Assembly: GCA_017553685.1 (NCBI GenBank)
Contig: JAFZKH010000007.1
Span: 1-64,000, forward strand
Direction: 5' to 3'
DNA: 64,000 bases
DNA from: Bacilli bacterium
GTDB taxonomy: Bacteria > Bacillota_I > Bacilli_A > RF39 > UBA660
Shown here: positions 6,001-23,364 of the stretch, one piece after another
How the letters are laid out: the number at the start of each line of letters is the position of its first letter
Position numbering within the stretch: position 1 is the first letter of the stretch
Made by a program: the position numbers and the translations under genes
Notes under the pieces: generated by a model
Told to the model about the DNA's origin: nothing
What the model saw: the letters and a program-made list of their open reading frames with translations, nothing else
Databases searched by the model: none

Positions 6001-9000
6001 ACTGGTAATTCAGATAATGGATATGCTAAAATTACATTCATTATATCTACAGAGGATTATAATAATATAAAATCGAATATACCTAAAACATATACCGTTA
6101 AGGAAGAACCTGTCTTTAAAAATTATATATATGATGTTGATATGAGTAATAAAGACACTATTACTCCACAAGATGATCCTTCATATAATCAAATAGTTGA
6201 TGAAACTATTAATGGTAACATTACTTCTACAATATATGATGTAATATTAAATGAACAATATGCAACATTAAATCTTGATGCGGGTAATATTAGTATTAAT
6301 TCGAATAGTAAAAATGCTATTATCAATAGAGGAAATTTAATCCTTGGTGCTAAATGTGTAATTAATGCAAGAAATAGCGATTCAATAGCTATATTTAACG
6401 AATCAAATGGAGATATTACTTCTTCTGGGGGAACAATTAATGCTATTGGAAGTAATTCGATTGGTCTTCTTAATAGAAGTTCTGATTCAATAATAAGTAA
6501 CTTAAATATTAACACTAGTACAACTAATTCATTTGGTATTAAAAATGAAGCTTTAACTAATGTTATATTTGATAATATATCAGTTAATGGTAGTGGAACT
6601 GGATTTAGAGAATTTTCTTCTGGAGATACTATAGTTCAAAATTCGAACTTTAAATCAACTTCTAGTTATTCATTTGTTTGTGCTGGACAAGCAAGAGCAA
6701 GTAAATTAACTATTAATAGTTCAAACTTTAATGGTGAATTCTATTCTCAAATATCACCTAGAATAGTAACAATTAATAATTCAAGTTTAACTACAATTAA
6801 TAATTATTCTGGTAATATAAATGTTAATGAATCTTATATAAACTATTTTGACAATAAGGGTGATGCTACAATTACAAGATCAACTATTACTAATAGCGAT
6901 ATGGCTATTAATAATAGAGGTGGACATGGAACTTATCTTGGTCAAGTTAAAGCTAAGATGTTAATAAAAGACTCAGAAATGTATTATACAGGTTCATCTG
7001 CTGATGTATATTTAATATCTAATAATGATTATCTAACTATAGATAATGTTAAGATTAACAATAATGGTGATGTTAGGGCAAAAGCCATTTATAACACAAA
7101 TGTAGGTTATAATGATTATGATGGTGAATTACCTGATGTACATGGAATTGTAAATATACTAGGTAATACTTTAATTGATGCTAGATTTAATACAGCAATT
7201 TACAACAATTCTACAGTTGTACTAGGTTCGATTGATAATGCTTCGTCAGGAGATGTGTATAGTTATAGTTATACAGGTAAGCAAGAAGTATTTACTGCAC
7301 CAAAAGATGGTATATATAAACTTGAAGCATGGGGTGCTGAAGGTGGTAACTCATATAATTATTCATGTTATATGGGTTCCTGTTCAAATTACTTTAGAGG
7401 TGGTCTTGGAGCATATGCTTCCGGTACTATTGAACTTCATGCAGGTGATAAATTATATATCCACGTTGGTGGACCAGGAAAATCAGGAGGACAAATAGCA
7501 AGTATTTCTGCTAGATATGGTTCATATAATGGTGGTGGTTATGATACTGCTCGTATGAACGATTGGTCAAATGGTTCTGGTGGAGGAGCTACAGATATTT
7601 CTCTTTCTAGTGAAGATAATGTATGGTCATATGATAATGGTATAGTAATGTCTAAAAGAAGTGATGCTTCTTATAATCAAAGAATTCTAATCGCTGGTGG
7701 TGGTGGAGGAGCTAAAAATGATAATCTAACATATGGTGGATATCCAATTGATCCTTCTACATCTAGACTTGGATATGGTTATGGAAGAGGTGGAGGAGGC
7801 TACTATGGTGGTACCGATGCACGTGGTGGTTCATCTTATGCTTCTGATACTTTAGATAATATAGTATTAAAAAATGGTACTGAAGTAATGCCTGGTTATT
7901 ATGCCTCAGAAAATATTGTAGGTAACTCTGGTGCAGGATATGCTAAGGTTACATTATTATCATCATCCTCTCTAGATACAGTAGAATTATTACCAAGGAT
8001 ATATGCTAATACAACTGGTATTACAGGTCCAGGAAAACTATACTTCTATGATGGAACTATTAATGCTAAAACTGCAGTTGATGCTGATATTCAAGTAGTT
8101 CCTGATAATTATGATATATATAACTCATTAGATGAAAACTCTAATGAAAAAATGATATTAGTTGCAAATAGTGATTCTAGACCAGTTCCATCTGGTGAAG
8201 AAGAATTTGTTTGTAAAATAGGTAATGCTAAATATACTACAATTCAAAATGCATTAGATGCATCTAATAACGGAGATACTATTGAATTATTAGTTAATAT
8301 AGAACAACAAAATAAAATAGTAATTCCTAGTGATAAACAGATTACTATTGACTATAAAGGTCATACTGTTAAATCTTATGTTAGTGATTATTTATATGAA
8401 AACCATAGTAATTTAACTATAAAAGATAGCGAGAATACTAAAAATAAAAATGTATTTATGGGTGATAAATACATCTATAATGATGGAACTATTAATATTA
8501 ATAATCTTTTTATTGATAATTCTAAGTATGTTGTTTATACAATTGAAAATAAAGGTATAGCAGTCATGAATGATGTAAAAATTGAAATTGGTAATCATTC
8601 TGAATCAAATAAATATGGTATTTATAATGATGAAACTGCTACAATGACTATTACTAATAGTGAATTTAGAGCATTTGGAAATAATAGAATGTTTAATAAC
8701 TATGGAACATTAAATATTAAGGATACACCTCTTATAAGTAATAATAGCGCTCCTTTAGTTAAAAACAATGAACAAGGAACAGCAATATTAGATAATACTG
8801 ATTTAAGACATGAAAATGCTAATAATAGTTATGGTATGTATTTAATAGATAACTATGGTAATGCAACAATAAAGAATTTAACAGATAATATATTTATAAT
8901 TCCTAATTCAGGTGTATTAACATTAGAAAATAATACATTTACTGATGGTACTATTAATAATGATGGTTTATTAATTATTAATAGTGGTACTTATAATAAT

Positions 9001-18993: not shown

Positions 18994-20910
18994 ATGAGTG
19001 TATTAATTATTTATTTAGTTATTATGTTTTTTATATTTTATATGGTTTCAAAAAAGAATAGTAAAACTAAATCAAGAAGAGTTGGGACTATATTTGCTTA
19101 TGTAATAGCAGGTATATTTGTTTTAATAATGATAATTCCTGTTTTAAAAAGTAGTATTAAATATGATGAGTTAAAGGATGTAGATCCTGCTGATGGTTTT
19201 GGTATTAATAAATATACTGTTAAATTAGATGTTAAAGAAGATAACATAGTAGATGTAGAAGAAGATGTTACTATTAACTGGCTTGAATATGGTCATCATG
19301 GAATATATAAATTTACTCCTGAATGGTATAAATATACATCTAAAAATGGTAAAACTATAAGAAGAAAATCTGAGTTATCTAACTTAAGAGCAGAAACTCC
19401 TCCTTATACTTATAACCCTAATTATGAATATAATTATGGTTCTGGTATTGAATATACTACTGATGAAAGTGTAGTAGAATCTTATTATAATAGTTCTTAT
19501 AGCTATACAACTGATGTAGTTAAAGATAAACCAAGAATAAAAATAGGTAGTTCTATGGTAACTCTTGGTAAAGGTGAAAAAGACTATATTATTAAATATA
19601 CTTATGATATGGGATCTGATCCATATGAGGGTTATGATGAATTTATATTCCACGCTTATGGTGATTATTGGGGAACTACTATTAATAATCCTACTTTAGA
19701 GATAACTATGCCAAAATCAATTGAAGGCTATACAGTTCATTTCTTTAAAGATAAATATAGAAAAGAAGATGTAACTAATAAAGTTACTTATAGTATTAGC
19801 GATAACAAATTAATTGCTAAATATAATGATAGTGATCTAACTACTGCTTTAACTGTAGATATAGAACTTCCTGATAATTATTTTGCTAATGGTTCTAATA
19901 ACTATGGAACTGGTTCTTTAATATGTATTGTTATATGTTTAATTAATTTAGTAATTGTATTCTTATTCTGGTTATTCTTTGGTAAGGATCATCATAAAAA
20001 AGCAGAGATGGTTAGTTATATGCCTCCAAGAGGATTAAGTGCTGCTGAACTTGGTTATATGATGTCAAATGGTTATAGTAGAAAACTAACTGTTGCTACT
20101 ATTATAGAACTTGCATCTCATGGACTTATTTCTATTAGAGAAGAAAATAAAAAAGCATATATTAAGAGTTTAAAACCTGATTCAAAAGATGAAAAAGCAA
20201 TGAAAAAATATAATAAGCTAGTAGAAAGCGTAAGTGATTATGAAAGAATAGTGCTTGCTGAATTAATGGATGTTACTGAAGAAATAGAATTAAAAGAACA
20301 TAAAACTTTATATACAGTATTTAGTAAAATAGAAGATAAACTAGATAAAGAATTAAAATGGTCTATTAATGAAAAAACTGGATTAGTACTTAGATATATT
20401 GGATTAGTTTTAACATGTATATCTGCATTATTTATGTATTTCTCATATAGTAAAGTAGAAGATTTACCTCAAAGTATATATTTTATGTATTATGTAGGAT
20501 TTATATCAGTATTTGTAATGATATTCTTATCTGCTATTATGACTAGAAGAAGTCAATTTGGAGAAGATATTAAAGTAGAAATTAATGGATTTAAGAAATT
20601 CTTAGTTAATGTAGAAAAGAATAAATTAGAAGAGTTAGTAGAAGAAATGCCTCATTATTTCTTTACTATACTTCCATATACTTATGTACTTAATATTTCT
20701 AAAAAATGGATAGAAAAGTTTAATGATATTCCTATTCCTGAAGCAGATGTTCCAATGAAGAATTTCTCATTACTTGATTCAATGTCAGATGATATATATG
20801 TACCAACTCCAACATATTCTGGTGGTGGTTCTAGTAGTTCATCTTGTGGTGGTGGATGTTCTTCATGTGGTGGAGGATGTTCATCTTGTGGAGGTGGAGG
20901 TTCATGGTAG
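18994..20910 (+). CDS. DUF2207 membrane protein with Cys/Gly/Ser tail
   Basis: A YciQ-like DUF2207 protein of 638 aa. Two N-terminal hydrophobic segments (about residues 2-20 and 33-50) precede an extracytoplasmic beta-rich DUF2207 domain (about 60-300), then a membrane segment (308-328), a cytoplasmic part of about 130 residues, two more membrane segments (about 468-525) and a tail. The tail from residue 610 is almost only Gly, Ser and Cys: SSCGGGCSSCGGGCSSCGGG, with five cysteines spaced alternately by three and two residues, ending GGGGSW. Family function is unknown. It lies 6 bases after the TtcA-like gene and overlaps the radical SAM gene by 7 bases. Confidence 0.85.
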   Translation: MSVLIIYLVIMFFIFYMVSKKNSKTKSRRVGTIFAYVIAGIFVLIMIIPVLKSSIKYDELKDVDPADGFGINKYTVKLDVKEDNIVDVEEDVTINWLEYGHHGIYKFTPEWYKYTSKNGKTIRRKSELSNLRAETPPYTYNPNYEYNYGSGIEYTTDESVVESYYNSSYSYTTDVVKDKPRIKIGSSMVTLGKGEKDYIIKYTYDMGSDPYEGYDEFIFHAYGDYWGTTINNPTLEITMPKSIEGYTVHFFKDKYRKEDVTNKVTYSISDNKLIAKYNDSDLTTALTVDIELPDNYFANGSNNYGTGSLICIVICLINLVIVFLFWLFFGKDHHKKAEMVSYMPPRGLSAAELGYMMSNGYSRKLTVATIIELASHGLISIREENKKAYIKSLKPDSKDEKAMKKYNKLVESVSDYERIVLAELMDVTEEIELKEHKTLYTVFSKIEDKLDKELKWSINEKTGLVLRYIGLVLTCISALFMYFSYSKVEDLPQSIYFMYYVGFISVFVMIFLSAIMTRRSQFGEDIKVEINGFKKFLVNVEKNKLEELVEEMPHYFFTILPYTYVLNISKKWIEKFNDIPIPEADVPMKNFSLLDSMSDDIYVPTPTYSGGGSSSSSCGGGCSSCGGGCSSCGGGGSW

Positions 20911-21887
20911 GAACCTTCATTCTTCAATGGCATTTATCTGAAAACTGTAATTTAAAATGTTTGCATTGTTATCAAGAAGATCATAAATCAGTATGTATTT
21001 CTTATAACAAGTTAGAACACATTTATTATGAATTTATTAATCTAATAGATAAACTTAATATGAATGGTCATATTAATATAACAGGAGGAGAACCTCTTTG
21101 CAATCCTCATTTATTTAGGGTATTAGATTTAATTAAAAAAGATAATAGAGTTACTTTTTCCATTCTTACTAATGGAACTTTAATTAATGATGATATAGCT
21201 ATGAAACTTAAATCATATAATCCATATTATGTTCAAGTAAGTTTAGAGGGTGGTAAAAAAATAAATGATTTAATAAGAGGCAATGGTACTTATAAACAAA
21301 TAGGCAAAGGCATTAAATCTTTAAAAAAGGCAGGTATATTTACTTCAATTAGTTTTACTGCTAATCATTTAAATTATAAAGAATTACCAAAAGTAGTTAA
21401 ATATGGAAAAAGATTAAAAGTAGATAATATATGGTCAGATAGATATATACCTCTTGGTGGATCTATGGATAAAGATTTAACTTTATCTAAAGAGGAAACT
21501 AGTATATATCTAGATATCATGAAAAAAGAAAGAGATAAACTAGGTAAGAAATCTAAGACTAGATTATCTATGAATAGAGCACTTCAATTTACTAGAACTA
21601 ATGAATATGCTTATGCATGTACATGTGGTGATACACTTCTTACTATTATGGAAAATGGAGATTTAGTTCCATGTAGAAGAATGCCTATAGTAGTAGGTAA
21701 TGTTTTAGTAGATAGTATGTATGAAATATATAAGAATAATAAAATACTTAAAAGTTTAAGAAAGAAAACTATTCCTGAAGAATGTAAGATGTGTGATAAT
21801 GCAGAAAAGTGTAGAGGAGGACTTAGATGTCTTACTTATGCTATTCTTGGGGATTACAACAAAAAAGATGTAGGGTGTGACTTATGA
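20904..21887 (+). CDS. Radical SAM/SPASM enzyme, putative peptide or protein maturase
   Basis: The radical SAM motif CNLKCLHC (Cys15, Cys19, Cys22) is at the N-terminus, followed by ITGGEPL for SAM binding. The C-terminal third has a SPASM-type set of cysteines: CTC, VPC, ECKMC, KCRGGLRC and a final GC, which would hold auxiliary Fe-S clusters. SPASM members usually modify ribosomal peptides or protein side chains. The start is taken at 20904 rather than 60 bases upstream: the longer reading (rich in Trp, Met, Phe) is only the shadow of the upstream Gly/Cys codons, and GGTGGAGG precedes this ATG. The start lies inside the DUF2207 gene and its stop shares ATGA with the GDPD gene, so all three are coupled. 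Confidence 0.85.
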   Translation: MVGTFILQWHLSENCNLKCLHCYQEDHKSVCISYNKLEHIYYEFINLIDKLNMNGHINITGGEPLCNPHLFRVLDLIKKDNRVTFSILTNGTLINDDIAMKLKSYNPYYVQVSLEGGKKINDLIRGNGTYKQIGKGIKSLKKAGIFTSISFTANHLNYKELPKVVKYGKRLKVDNIWSDRYIPLGGSMDKDLTLSKEETSIYLDIMKKERDKLGKKSKTRLSMNRALQFTRTNEYAYACTCGDTLLTIMENGDLVPCRRMPIVVGNVLVDSMYEIYKNNKILKSLRKKTIPEECKMCDNAEKCRGGLRCLTYAILGDYNKKDVGCDL

Positions 21888-22579
21888 AGAATTTAGATTT
21901 TATTACAAATATAACAATAATGCATAGAGGATTCTTTGATAATGAAAAAATAGTTGAGAATACTATTAAATCATTTAAAAAGTCTAATAGTTTAAAACAT
22001 CCATATGAATTAGATGTTAGATTAACAAAAGATGAGAAACTAGTAGTATTTCATGATGAAACTTTAAAAAGACTTGGTAATAGTAATAAAAAAGTATCTG
22101 ATATGACTTATAGTGAACTATCTAAGATTAAACTACTAGGATTAGATAATATTCCTTTATTTGAAGATGTTTTAAAACTTGATAATAAATATGGAATAAT
22201 AATTGAAATTAAAAATGAGAATAATAATAGAGTTTTAGAAGATAAACTTTTAGAATTATTATCTAGTTATGATAATAAGTATTCTATTATTAGTTTTAAC
22301 AAAAAATCACTTAGATATATTAGATCTAAGAATAAAGATATTCCTTTAGGATTCTTAATTAATAAAAGTAAGAAATCATATGATAGATTACAAAATAGTT
22401 TCTTTATTAAAACATTTAAACCTGATTTTATATCTATTAATAAATCAGAAATTAATAATAAATATGTAAAGAAATATAAAAATCCTATTTTAATTTGGAC
22501 AATTAAAACAAGAGAAGATTATAATAAATATAGGAATAAAGGAACAAATTTAGTACTAGAAAATATAAATATGATATAA
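21884..22579 (+). CDS. Glycerophosphodiester phosphodiesterase (GDPD family)
   Basis: Hydrolyses glycerophosphodiesters to glycerol-3-phosphate and an alcohol. The TIM-barrel motifs are present: MHRG, ELDVRLTKD with acidic metal ligands, VFHD with the second catalytic His, and IIEIKNE. 231 aa, no signal peptide, so cytoplasmic. It overlaps the radical SAM gene by four bases (ATGA). The tail is more divergent than usual and Lys/Asn-rich. Its stop codon is inside the -10 hexamer of the next gene's promoter. Confidence 0.88.
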   Translation: MKNLDFITNITIMHRGFFDNEKIVENTIKSFKKSNSLKHPYELDVRLTKDEKLVVFHDETLKRLGNSNKKVSDMTYSELSKIKLLGLDNIPLFEDVLKLDNKYGIIIEIKNENNNRVLEDKLLELLSSYDNKYSIISFNKKSLRYIRSKNKDIPLGFLINKSKKSYDRLQNSFFIKTFKPDFISINKSEINNKYVKKYKNPILIWTIKTREDYNKYRNKGTNLVLENINMI

Positions 22580-22596: not shown

Positions 22597-23364
22597 ATGA
22601 AAGACCAATTAGTTAATGATTTGCTGAAATATTTTTTAGATGAAGCAGATAAAGATAATATTGAAATTCCTGATAGTTTTGTTAATAAAAGAACTCTTTT
22701 AACTGGTCTTTTAAATCAAAGACCTGCTAAACCAGTACCTGAAGAAGTTCTAAGAGAAGAAGATCTACTTATAAAAGAAGAAAATGATAATAGAAAAATA
22801 GTAGATATTAATGAAATTGAAGGTAAGATAGTATTAATAAATAATGATATTACAGCATTAAAGGTAGAAGCTATAGTAAATCCTTGTGATGAACATATGC
22901 TAGGATGTTTTACTCCTAATCATAATTGTATTGAAAATAAAGTTCATACATATGCTGGAGTTAGACTTAGACTTAAATGCAGTGAAATAATGAGAGGAGA
23001 CCTACTTGGTATTGGTAAAGTAGTATTAACAGACGCCTATAATTTACCATGTGAATATATTATTCATACAGTAGGACCTGAAATAGAAAATGAAGTTACT
23101 GAAGAAAAGACAGAAGAACTAAAAGACTGTTATAGAAACTCATTAGAAATTGCTAAAAACAATAATATTAAACAAATAGCATTTCCATGTATTTCTACAG
23201 GTAGACATTCTTTTCCAAGTAAACTTGCATGTGAGATAGCAATTTCTGTTGTTAAAGAGTTTATTAGTGAATATGATGTATTTGATAAGATTGTATTTTG
23301 TACTCTTACACTTGAAAACTATGCTATTTATGAAGAAGAATTAAAAAGAAATAATATGCTATAA
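22597..23364 (+). CDS. Zinc-type macrodomain protein, ADP-ribosyl hydrolase-like
   Basis: A macrodomain of the zinc-containing bacterial class. After about 75 N-terminal residues come INNDITALKVEAIVNPCD (ADP-ribose-binding strand and loop), GCFTPNHNCIENKVH giving C-x4-H-x-C ligands for zinc, AGVRLRLKC, and the second ligand loop FPCISTGRHSFP. Known members remove ADP-ribose from proteins and are often encoded with a SirTM ADP-ribosyltransferase and lipoylated GcvH-like protein; neither is in this window. It has its own extended -10 and no partner gene, so it may act on general ADP-ribosylation. Confidence 0.85.
   Translation: MKDQLVNDLLKYFLDEADKDNIEIPDSFVNKRTLLTGLLNQRPAKPVPEEVLREEDLLIKEENDNRKIVDINEIEGKIVLINNDITALKVEAIVNPCDEHMLGCFTPNHNCIENKVHTYAGVRLRLKCSEIMRGDLLGIGKVVLTDAYNLPCEYIIHTVGPEIENEVTEEKTEELKDCYRNSLEIAKNNNIKQIAFPCISTGRHSFPSKLACEIAISVVKEFISEYDVFDKIVFCTLTLENYAIYEEELKRNNML

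Follow-up and report, generated by a model that had tools for sequence, protein, structure and literature searches.

A Cys-Gly-Ser tail on a DUF2207 membrane protein as the proposed substrate of an overlapping radical SAM/SPASM enzyme

A DUF2207 membrane protein in the window, the 64,000-nucleotide stretch of bacterial DNA analysed here, ends in a Cys-Gly-Ser tail, and a gene for a radical SAM/SPASM enzyme begins inside the codons of that tail. This arrangement raises the question of whether the tail is the enzyme's substrate. Radical SAM/SPASM maturases have been studied mostly on small peptides, and SPASM maturases of Cys-rich peptides are already known. DUF2207 proteins are found across bacteria and their function is unknown; knockout of a SMU.243-like member has been reported to have only stress and biofilm effects (PMC10457818). 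The elements of the locus are as follows.

18994-20910, + strand: DUF2207 membrane protein with the tail, the proposed substrate (PF09972, PF20990, hydropathy, AlphaFold model)
20818-20907, + strand: last 30 residues of this protein, a Gly/Ser/Cys tail and proposed embedded core peptide, SGGGSSSSSCGGGCSSCGGGCSSCGGGGSW (tail conserved in 52 tails)
20845-20889, + strand: five-Cys stretch CGGGCSSCGGGCSSC (from the sequence; full form in relatives (CSSCGGG)3)
20890-20894, + strand: GGAGG, Shine-Dalgarno-like, from tail Gly codons, 9 nt before the enzyme ATG (from the sequence)
20896-20900, + strand: second GGAGG, likewise from tail Gly codons (from the sequence)
20904-21887, + strand: radical SAM/SPASM enzyme, the proposed tail maturase, its ATG overlapping the DUF2207 Trp-stop codons (PF04055, PF13186)

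The DUF2207 reading frame encodes 638 amino acids and has the C-terminal end ...YSGGGSSSSSCGGGCSSCGGGCSSCGGGGSW. Its five tail cysteines, residues 618, 622, 625, 629 and 632, have exactly the spacing C-x3-C-x2-C-x3-C-x2-C described in an earlier, sequence-only reading of this DNA. That reading had also placed the start of the enzyme within the tail codons and built its ribosome binding site from the tail's Gly codons, and both details are borne out: the ATG at 20904-20906 lies within the Ser-Trp-stop codons of DUF2207 (tcATGGTAG), and GGAGG occurs twice ahead of it. A start at 20844, given in a program-made list of open reading frames, is an artefact of an overlapping open frame and was set aside for the ATG at 20904. 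The enzyme's start codon, ATG in 24 and TTG in 27, stands beside the stop of the DUF2207 gene in all 51 orthologs compared, within Ser-Trp-stop in nearly all of them and a few bases further on in locus L098. Because the same tail and the same overlap were found again in more than 50 species, they are not a product of chance.

The DUF2207 protein meets the thresholds of its family, with 54.4 bits for PF09972 (cut-off 24.4) and 98.7 bits for PF20990 (cut-off 33). Hydropathy places five hydrophobic, membrane segments in it, and its AlphaFold model consists of an N-terminal beta domain, membrane helices and a disordered tail, with pLDDT below 50 for residues 606-633. With five membrane segments and the acidic 245-residue beta domain placed outside, the tail would probably lie inside, on the cytosolic side where the enzyme is predicted to be; this location is inferred, its orientation coming from hydropathy only. 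The window protein has no match to TIGR04222 (cut-off 43 bits), an MNIO-associated membrane family. One tailed DUF2207 from another genome (L143:1158-2573) reaches 19 bits against it (E 9e-4), a weak match under the cut-off that leaves room for a remote kinship between DUF2207_C and TIGR04222.

The neighbouring enzyme is a radical SAM/SPASM protein by both of its domains, PF04055 at 79.9 bits (cut-off 29.5) and PF13186 at 35 bits (cut-off 21.5), and it has no extra N-terminal domain. Eleven cysteines are conserved among the 51 orthologs, including those of two regions.

20946-20969, + strand: CX3CX2C, the radical SAM [4Fe-4S] cluster motif (C15, C19 and C22 from the ATG; at least 98% conserved in 51 orthologs)
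21618-21884, + strand: SPASM region with seven conserved Cys, C239, C257, C294, C297, C303, C309 and C325 (PF13186; 51 orthologs)

The seven-Cys layout is established for the SPASM family, and by homology these residues are the ligands of two auxiliary clusters. The AlphaFold model of the enzyme is confident (pLDDT 89), and its Foldseek neighbours are peptide-modifying SPASM enzymes: anSME, SuiB, the thioether-forming enzyme of 5wgg/5why and SkfB, with TM scores of 0.69-0.79 by query length. The best-scoring named family is TIGR04340 (rSAM_ACGX), in which membership is not met: the window enzyme scores 150.3 bits and the Pseudobutyrivibrio ortholog 153.3 bits against a cut-off of 400, where true members nearby reach 456-550. 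Neither are the thresholds of TIGR04303 (GeoRSP, 136 bits, cut-off 400) or TIGR04082 (SbtM, 119 bits, cut-off 350) met, and these scores rule out filing the enzyme under ACGX or GeoRSP.

The case for the tail as substrate rests on how tail and enzyme occur together. A degenerate DNA pattern for CSSCGGGCSSC was run against one genome per species for about 85,000 species and returned 94 stretches, 50 of which encode DUF2207 proteins ending ...CSSCGGGGSW. An ortholog of the enzyme follows directly downstream in 49 of the 50, within the same stretch for 47 and adjacent in the genome for L112 and L123, where the stretch had ended early. The tailed DUF2207 of L111 is not adjacent to the enzyme and is followed by an unrelated gene, a transporter judging by its sequence; a different contig of its genome (L131) carries another tailed DUF2207 together with the enzyme, which brings the genomes with the enzyme to all 50. 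The sequence-only reading had asked whether a Cys in the tail predicts an adjacent SPASM gene, and had named many Cys-tailed DUF2207 genes without the enzyme as its refutation; the prediction came true in 49 cases, with the enzyme elsewhere in the genome in the fiftieth, and no such body of unpaired genes was found for this tail among the species scanned. Most of the remaining 44 stretches were Cys runs in overlapping frames, rejected as chance pattern matches, and a few held real motifs at the C-terminus of small proteins. As for the L111 protein without an enzyme of its own (L111:1934-4076), the enzyme may act on it in trans, or the copy may be decaying.

The association holds equally from the side of the enzyme. 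All six ortholog-bearing genomes of the window's genus and one further relative, namely the window's own and five with the enzyme at 68-92% identity, carry a Cys-tailed DUF2207 directly upstream. A search by enzyme alone through 386 genomes of the family yielded 13 new orthologs (L187-L199), each with a tailed DUF2207 upstream, and after removal of duplicates the pairing stood at 51 of 51. Another 299 genomes, from the Pseudobutyrivibrio family, contributed one more paired ortholog, L275, so that 52 of 52 distinct enzyme orthologs lie directly behind a tailed DUF2207, and 20 of the paired genomes (19 and L275) were found through the enzyme alone. A divergent homolog, L278 (237 bits), also stands behind a PF09972 protein (40 bits, cut-off 24.4), whose tail, CSSCSSCSSCSSCGGGGAD, has the form (CSS)4C. 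An even sample of 392 genomes across the phylum contained an ortholog in the window's own genome and in no other. Given this rarity, the tight pairing is all the more telling; the system spans some fifty gut and rumen bacteria and has a cultured host in Pseudobutyrivibrio ruminis DSM 9787. This reciprocal association supports the earlier proposal that the Cys-Gly-Ser tail is the substrate of the adjoining SPASM enzyme, and the proposal is held here with considerable confidence; the modification itself is inferred, without biochemical evidence.

A cysteine tail is not a general property of DUF2207 proteins. In a background of 87 DUF2207 C-termini gathered irrespective of tail, the only set in which other kinds of Cys tail were sought, four have at least 2 Cys in the last 40 residues: three are paired with the enzyme, and one is a stray without a Gly/Ser tail. 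The other 83 have neither tail nor enzyme, in agreement with the statement in the sequence-only reading that most DUF2207 tails have no cysteines. The second DUF2207 of the window genome (contig C8, beside LemA) has a Gly/Ser tail with no Cys, and that of a Pseudobutyrivibrio genome (G778) is likewise Cys-less. Such ordinary DUF2207 proteins, SMU.243-like or the copy beside LemA, have the same domains and often a Gly/Ser tail ending in Ser-Trp; they differ in lacking tail cysteines and a radical SAM neighbour of this kind.

Comparison of the tails reveals their construction. The consensus is (CSSCGGG)1-3, ending CSSCGGGGSW, after a variable, Ser-rich linker. Most relatives have the complete repeat, CSSCGGG three times with six Cys, and the five relatives with the enzyme at 68-92% identity have the tail CSSCGGGCSSCGGGCSSCGGGGSW, with six Cys in three units; the window tail has lost the first Cys of its first unit (SSSC). 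The number of CSSC units varies from one to three, and two-Cys tails with a single CSSC occur with the enzyme in L199 and in L275 of the Pseudobutyrivibrio family, where the one-unit tail reads GGGCSSCGGGGSW. In L187 the middle unit has lost both of its Cys together, which points to CSSC as the putative unit of the tail.

The same motif is also found apart from the enzyme. CSSCGGGCSSC stands at or near the C-terminus of small unrelated proteins, YlbF, DUF1292, IscA/HesB-like and formyltransferase-like (L164:2226-2651, L170:3251-3598, L104:5419-5751 and L108:2049-2537), whose genomes encode distant radical SAM proteins but lack an ortholog of the enzyme. On these proteins it is perhaps a convergent metal or Fe-S tail, and since the enzyme is missing from their genomes, the motif can be useful without modification, probably by binding metal or Fe-S. 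The DUF2207 tail, too, could be an unmodified metal, Fe-S or redox disulfide site, with the enzyme acting on another substrate or merely being served by the tail, for instance through cluster donation or docking. In favour of this, the CxxC pair is a classic ligand arrangement, Fe-S clusters are known in the YlbF family, and the YlbF-, DUF1292- and IscA/HesB-like proteins end in the motif without any enzyme. Yet the single-CSSC tails, with only two cysteines, could not hold a cluster within one molecule, a simple ligand site gives no reason for the enzyme to accompany it in every one of 50 genomes, no other conserved neighbour offers itself as a substrate, and the nearest enzyme family pairs with Cys-Gly repeat peptides. 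An unmodified site is for these reasons judged unlikely.

The codons of the tail bear on a further explanation, that the overlap is accidental and the tail is kept only for the ribosome-binding site and start of the enzyme. It is true that the final Gly codons supply GGAGG and that Ser-Trp-stop contains the start codon. The codons were counted in 19 tails found via the enzyme search and hence not selected by the tail pattern. Pairwise codon comparison of their last 10 residues gave 774 synonymous differences and not one that was non-synonymous, versus 439 synonymous and 2601 non-synonymous in the linker just before. Serines within CSSC use TCN in 113 of 113 cases and never AGY, whereas linker serines use 105 TCN and 62 AGY codons; the Fisher value of 1e-36 is descriptive only, the sequences being related. 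A change between TCN and AGY one base at a time requires a non-Ser intermediate, and because AGY is never seen, the serines between the tail cysteines are, on this codon evidence, strictly held by purifying selection. The Cys and Ser positions upstream of the ribosome-binding site are thus as strictly conserved as the rest, with free synonymous change, Cys-less DUF2207 tails could provide the same site, and L111 retains its tail without the enzyme behind it. An accidental overlap is scarcely credible, and conservation of the tail as a by-product of the ribosome-binding site is largely refuted by the codon pattern.

The genes around the pair define the extent of the system. Downstream of the enzyme lies a third overlapping gene.

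21884-22579, + strand: GDPD-family phosphodiesterase, overlapping the enzyme by ATGA at 21884 (PF03009, 97 bits)

The sequence-only reading had regarded this gene as coupled and perhaps part of the unit. Translational coupling stands here by virtue of the ATGA overlap; conserved membership does not, and it was rejected, as GDPD adjoins the enzyme in only 5 of 51 orthologs, all in the window's genus. Shortly after GDPD the window encodes a macrodomain-like protein (22597-23364). A similar one, likewise identified by reading the sequence, occurs beside a sirtuin-like gene in L295 (genome G1046, contig C55), where both genes lie between two systems about 5 kb apart on one contig, the first an ACGX-repeat peptide and its enzyme (1019-2267), the second a (CSS)4C-tailed DUF2207 and its enzyme (6030-8524).

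What follows DUF2207 and enzyme differs between genomes, and the two genes therefore form a unit by themselves. The same variation speaks against a separate short Cys peptide as the substrate, which was rejected: none is conserved beside the pair, and the sequence-only reading had seen none nearby in the window. Ortholog distances of the two proteins correlate (r 0.91), as expected of proteins that travel together and no proof of contact by itself. The Pseudobutyrivibrio enzymes branch inside the Bacilli enzymes, and this nesting in the tree suggests a transfer of the pair between lineages.

The neighbourhoods of the orthologs show no conserved leader peptidase, exporter or separate gene for RiPP recognition, and the RiPP criterion of a short separate precursor with a leader is not met, the Cys motif being the tail of a large membrane protein. 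The repeat Cys-Gly core after a variable Ser-rich linker does resemble a leader-core boundary, and the tail might be a RiPP precursor that, once modified, is cleaved from its carrier to yield a released or exported peptide. However, neither a protease nor an exporter accompanies the pair, and the carrier is a multi-pass protein of a family that normally keeps its Gly/Ser tail, so that cleavage appears quite improbable.

If the tail is modified and retained, the nature of the bond has to be considered, which the sequence does not reveal. The most likely product would be a thioether from Cys to a Ser or Gly carbon, as in sacti- or ranthipeptides, with a probability put just short of an even chance. 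Another Cys-derived group, for example a metal-binding heterocycle of the thiooxazole type, is possible and somewhat doubtful. MNIO enzymes make heterocycles of this kind on bufferins. TIGR04082, which NCBI calls 'thio(seleno)oxazole modification radical SAM maturase SbtM', ranks with the families closest to the window enzyme, and the Pseudobutyrivibrio enzyme scores 148 bits against it versus 153 bits against TIGR04340. A proposed parallel is provided by TIGR04222 membrane proteins, which have a Cys-rich C-terminal segment beside MNIO (DUF692) enzymes (PMC12452194), and one tailed DUF2207, that of L143, gave the weak match to TIGR04222 noted above. Still, all of the family scores are far below their cut-offs, the literature search found no experimental paper on SbtM or ACGX, and the strict Ser between the cysteines is more simply explained by Ser as the acceptor.

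Among known systems, several resemble the pair in part. QhpC, a subunit of quinohemoprotein amine dehydrogenase, receives intraprotein thioethers from the SPASM enzyme QhpD, the target being a working protein and not a natural product; QhpC, however, is small and soluble with a dedicated fold, where the DUF2207 tail is a repeat carried by a membrane protein. The sacti- and ranthipeptide maturases SkfB, CteB and SuiB, together with anSME, share the fold and the SPASM Cys layout, but at 18-23% identity and with a different substrate architecture, and the window enzyme has no N-terminal recognition domain. The ACGX system (TIGR04340 with TIGR04341) is nearest, being a stand-alone SPASM enzyme without a fused recognition domain and with a Cys-Gly repeat partner immediately upstream. 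In the same bacterial family, the true TIGR04340 enzymes of L200 and L202 each follow a gene for an ACGX-repeat peptide of the TIGR04341 type. In contrast, the window enzyme falls in a separate clade far under the 400-bit cut-off and does not meet the partner test: 51 of 51 orthologs have the tailed DUF2207 upstream, and the substrate would be a multi-pass protein's tail of CSSC/GGG units in place of a 66-residue ACGX peptide. In the sister group the associated sequences are Cys-Gly repeats on small peptides; in this group they are CSSC/Gly repeats on a membrane protein. TIGR04222 resembles the pair in being a membrane protein with a Cys-rich C-terminus beside a Cys-modifying maturase; it differs in that the maturase is an MNIO and not a radical SAM enzyme, the association is loose (490 of 1372 genomes have no MNIO), the tails are predicted outside where those of DUF2207 are predicted inside, and the family is mostly from Actinomycetota (PMC12452194). 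In the papers searched, which did not cover most subscription journals, there was no record of a DUF2207-radical SAM pair, CSSCGGG was nowhere printed, and no paper on the ACGX system was found.

The preferred model is a self-contained cassette of substrate and enzyme. The flexible, probably cytosolic tail would serve as a core peptide within a membrane protein, with one to three CSSC units and GGG spacers, and the SPASM enzyme would be translated from the start codon within the last codons of its substrate. Using S-adenosylmethionine and its [4Fe-4S] cluster, the enzyme would generate a radical on the tail and install a modification at each CSSC unit, an arrangement that fits the varying unit number and the single-CSSC tails of L199 and L275. 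Because no leader peptidase, recognition gene or exporter is conserved, the modified tail would most likely remain attached to the membrane protein, where it would form a rigid element for handling thiols or metal. In its full form, this model has a dedicated SPASM enzyme iteratively modifying a repeat core in the tail of one integral membrane protein, with no leader, recognition gene, protease or export involved, and so leaving a permanent appendage that handles thiols or metal; its role is inferred, and the evidence leans towards the full form without carrying it far.

The tail is very probably the target of its enzyme, as a protein counterpart of the modified peptides that such enzymes usually make. 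The association data indicate a SPASM subfamily dedicated to the tail of a membrane protein, and with it a new substrate logic for these enzymes, in which the core is fused to a membrane carrier and the two genes overlap. A new peptide crosslink or heterocycle is likely, its chemistry being inferred. For the DUF2207 family, the pair gives a testable handle on function through comparison of a modified with a plain Gly/Ser tail.
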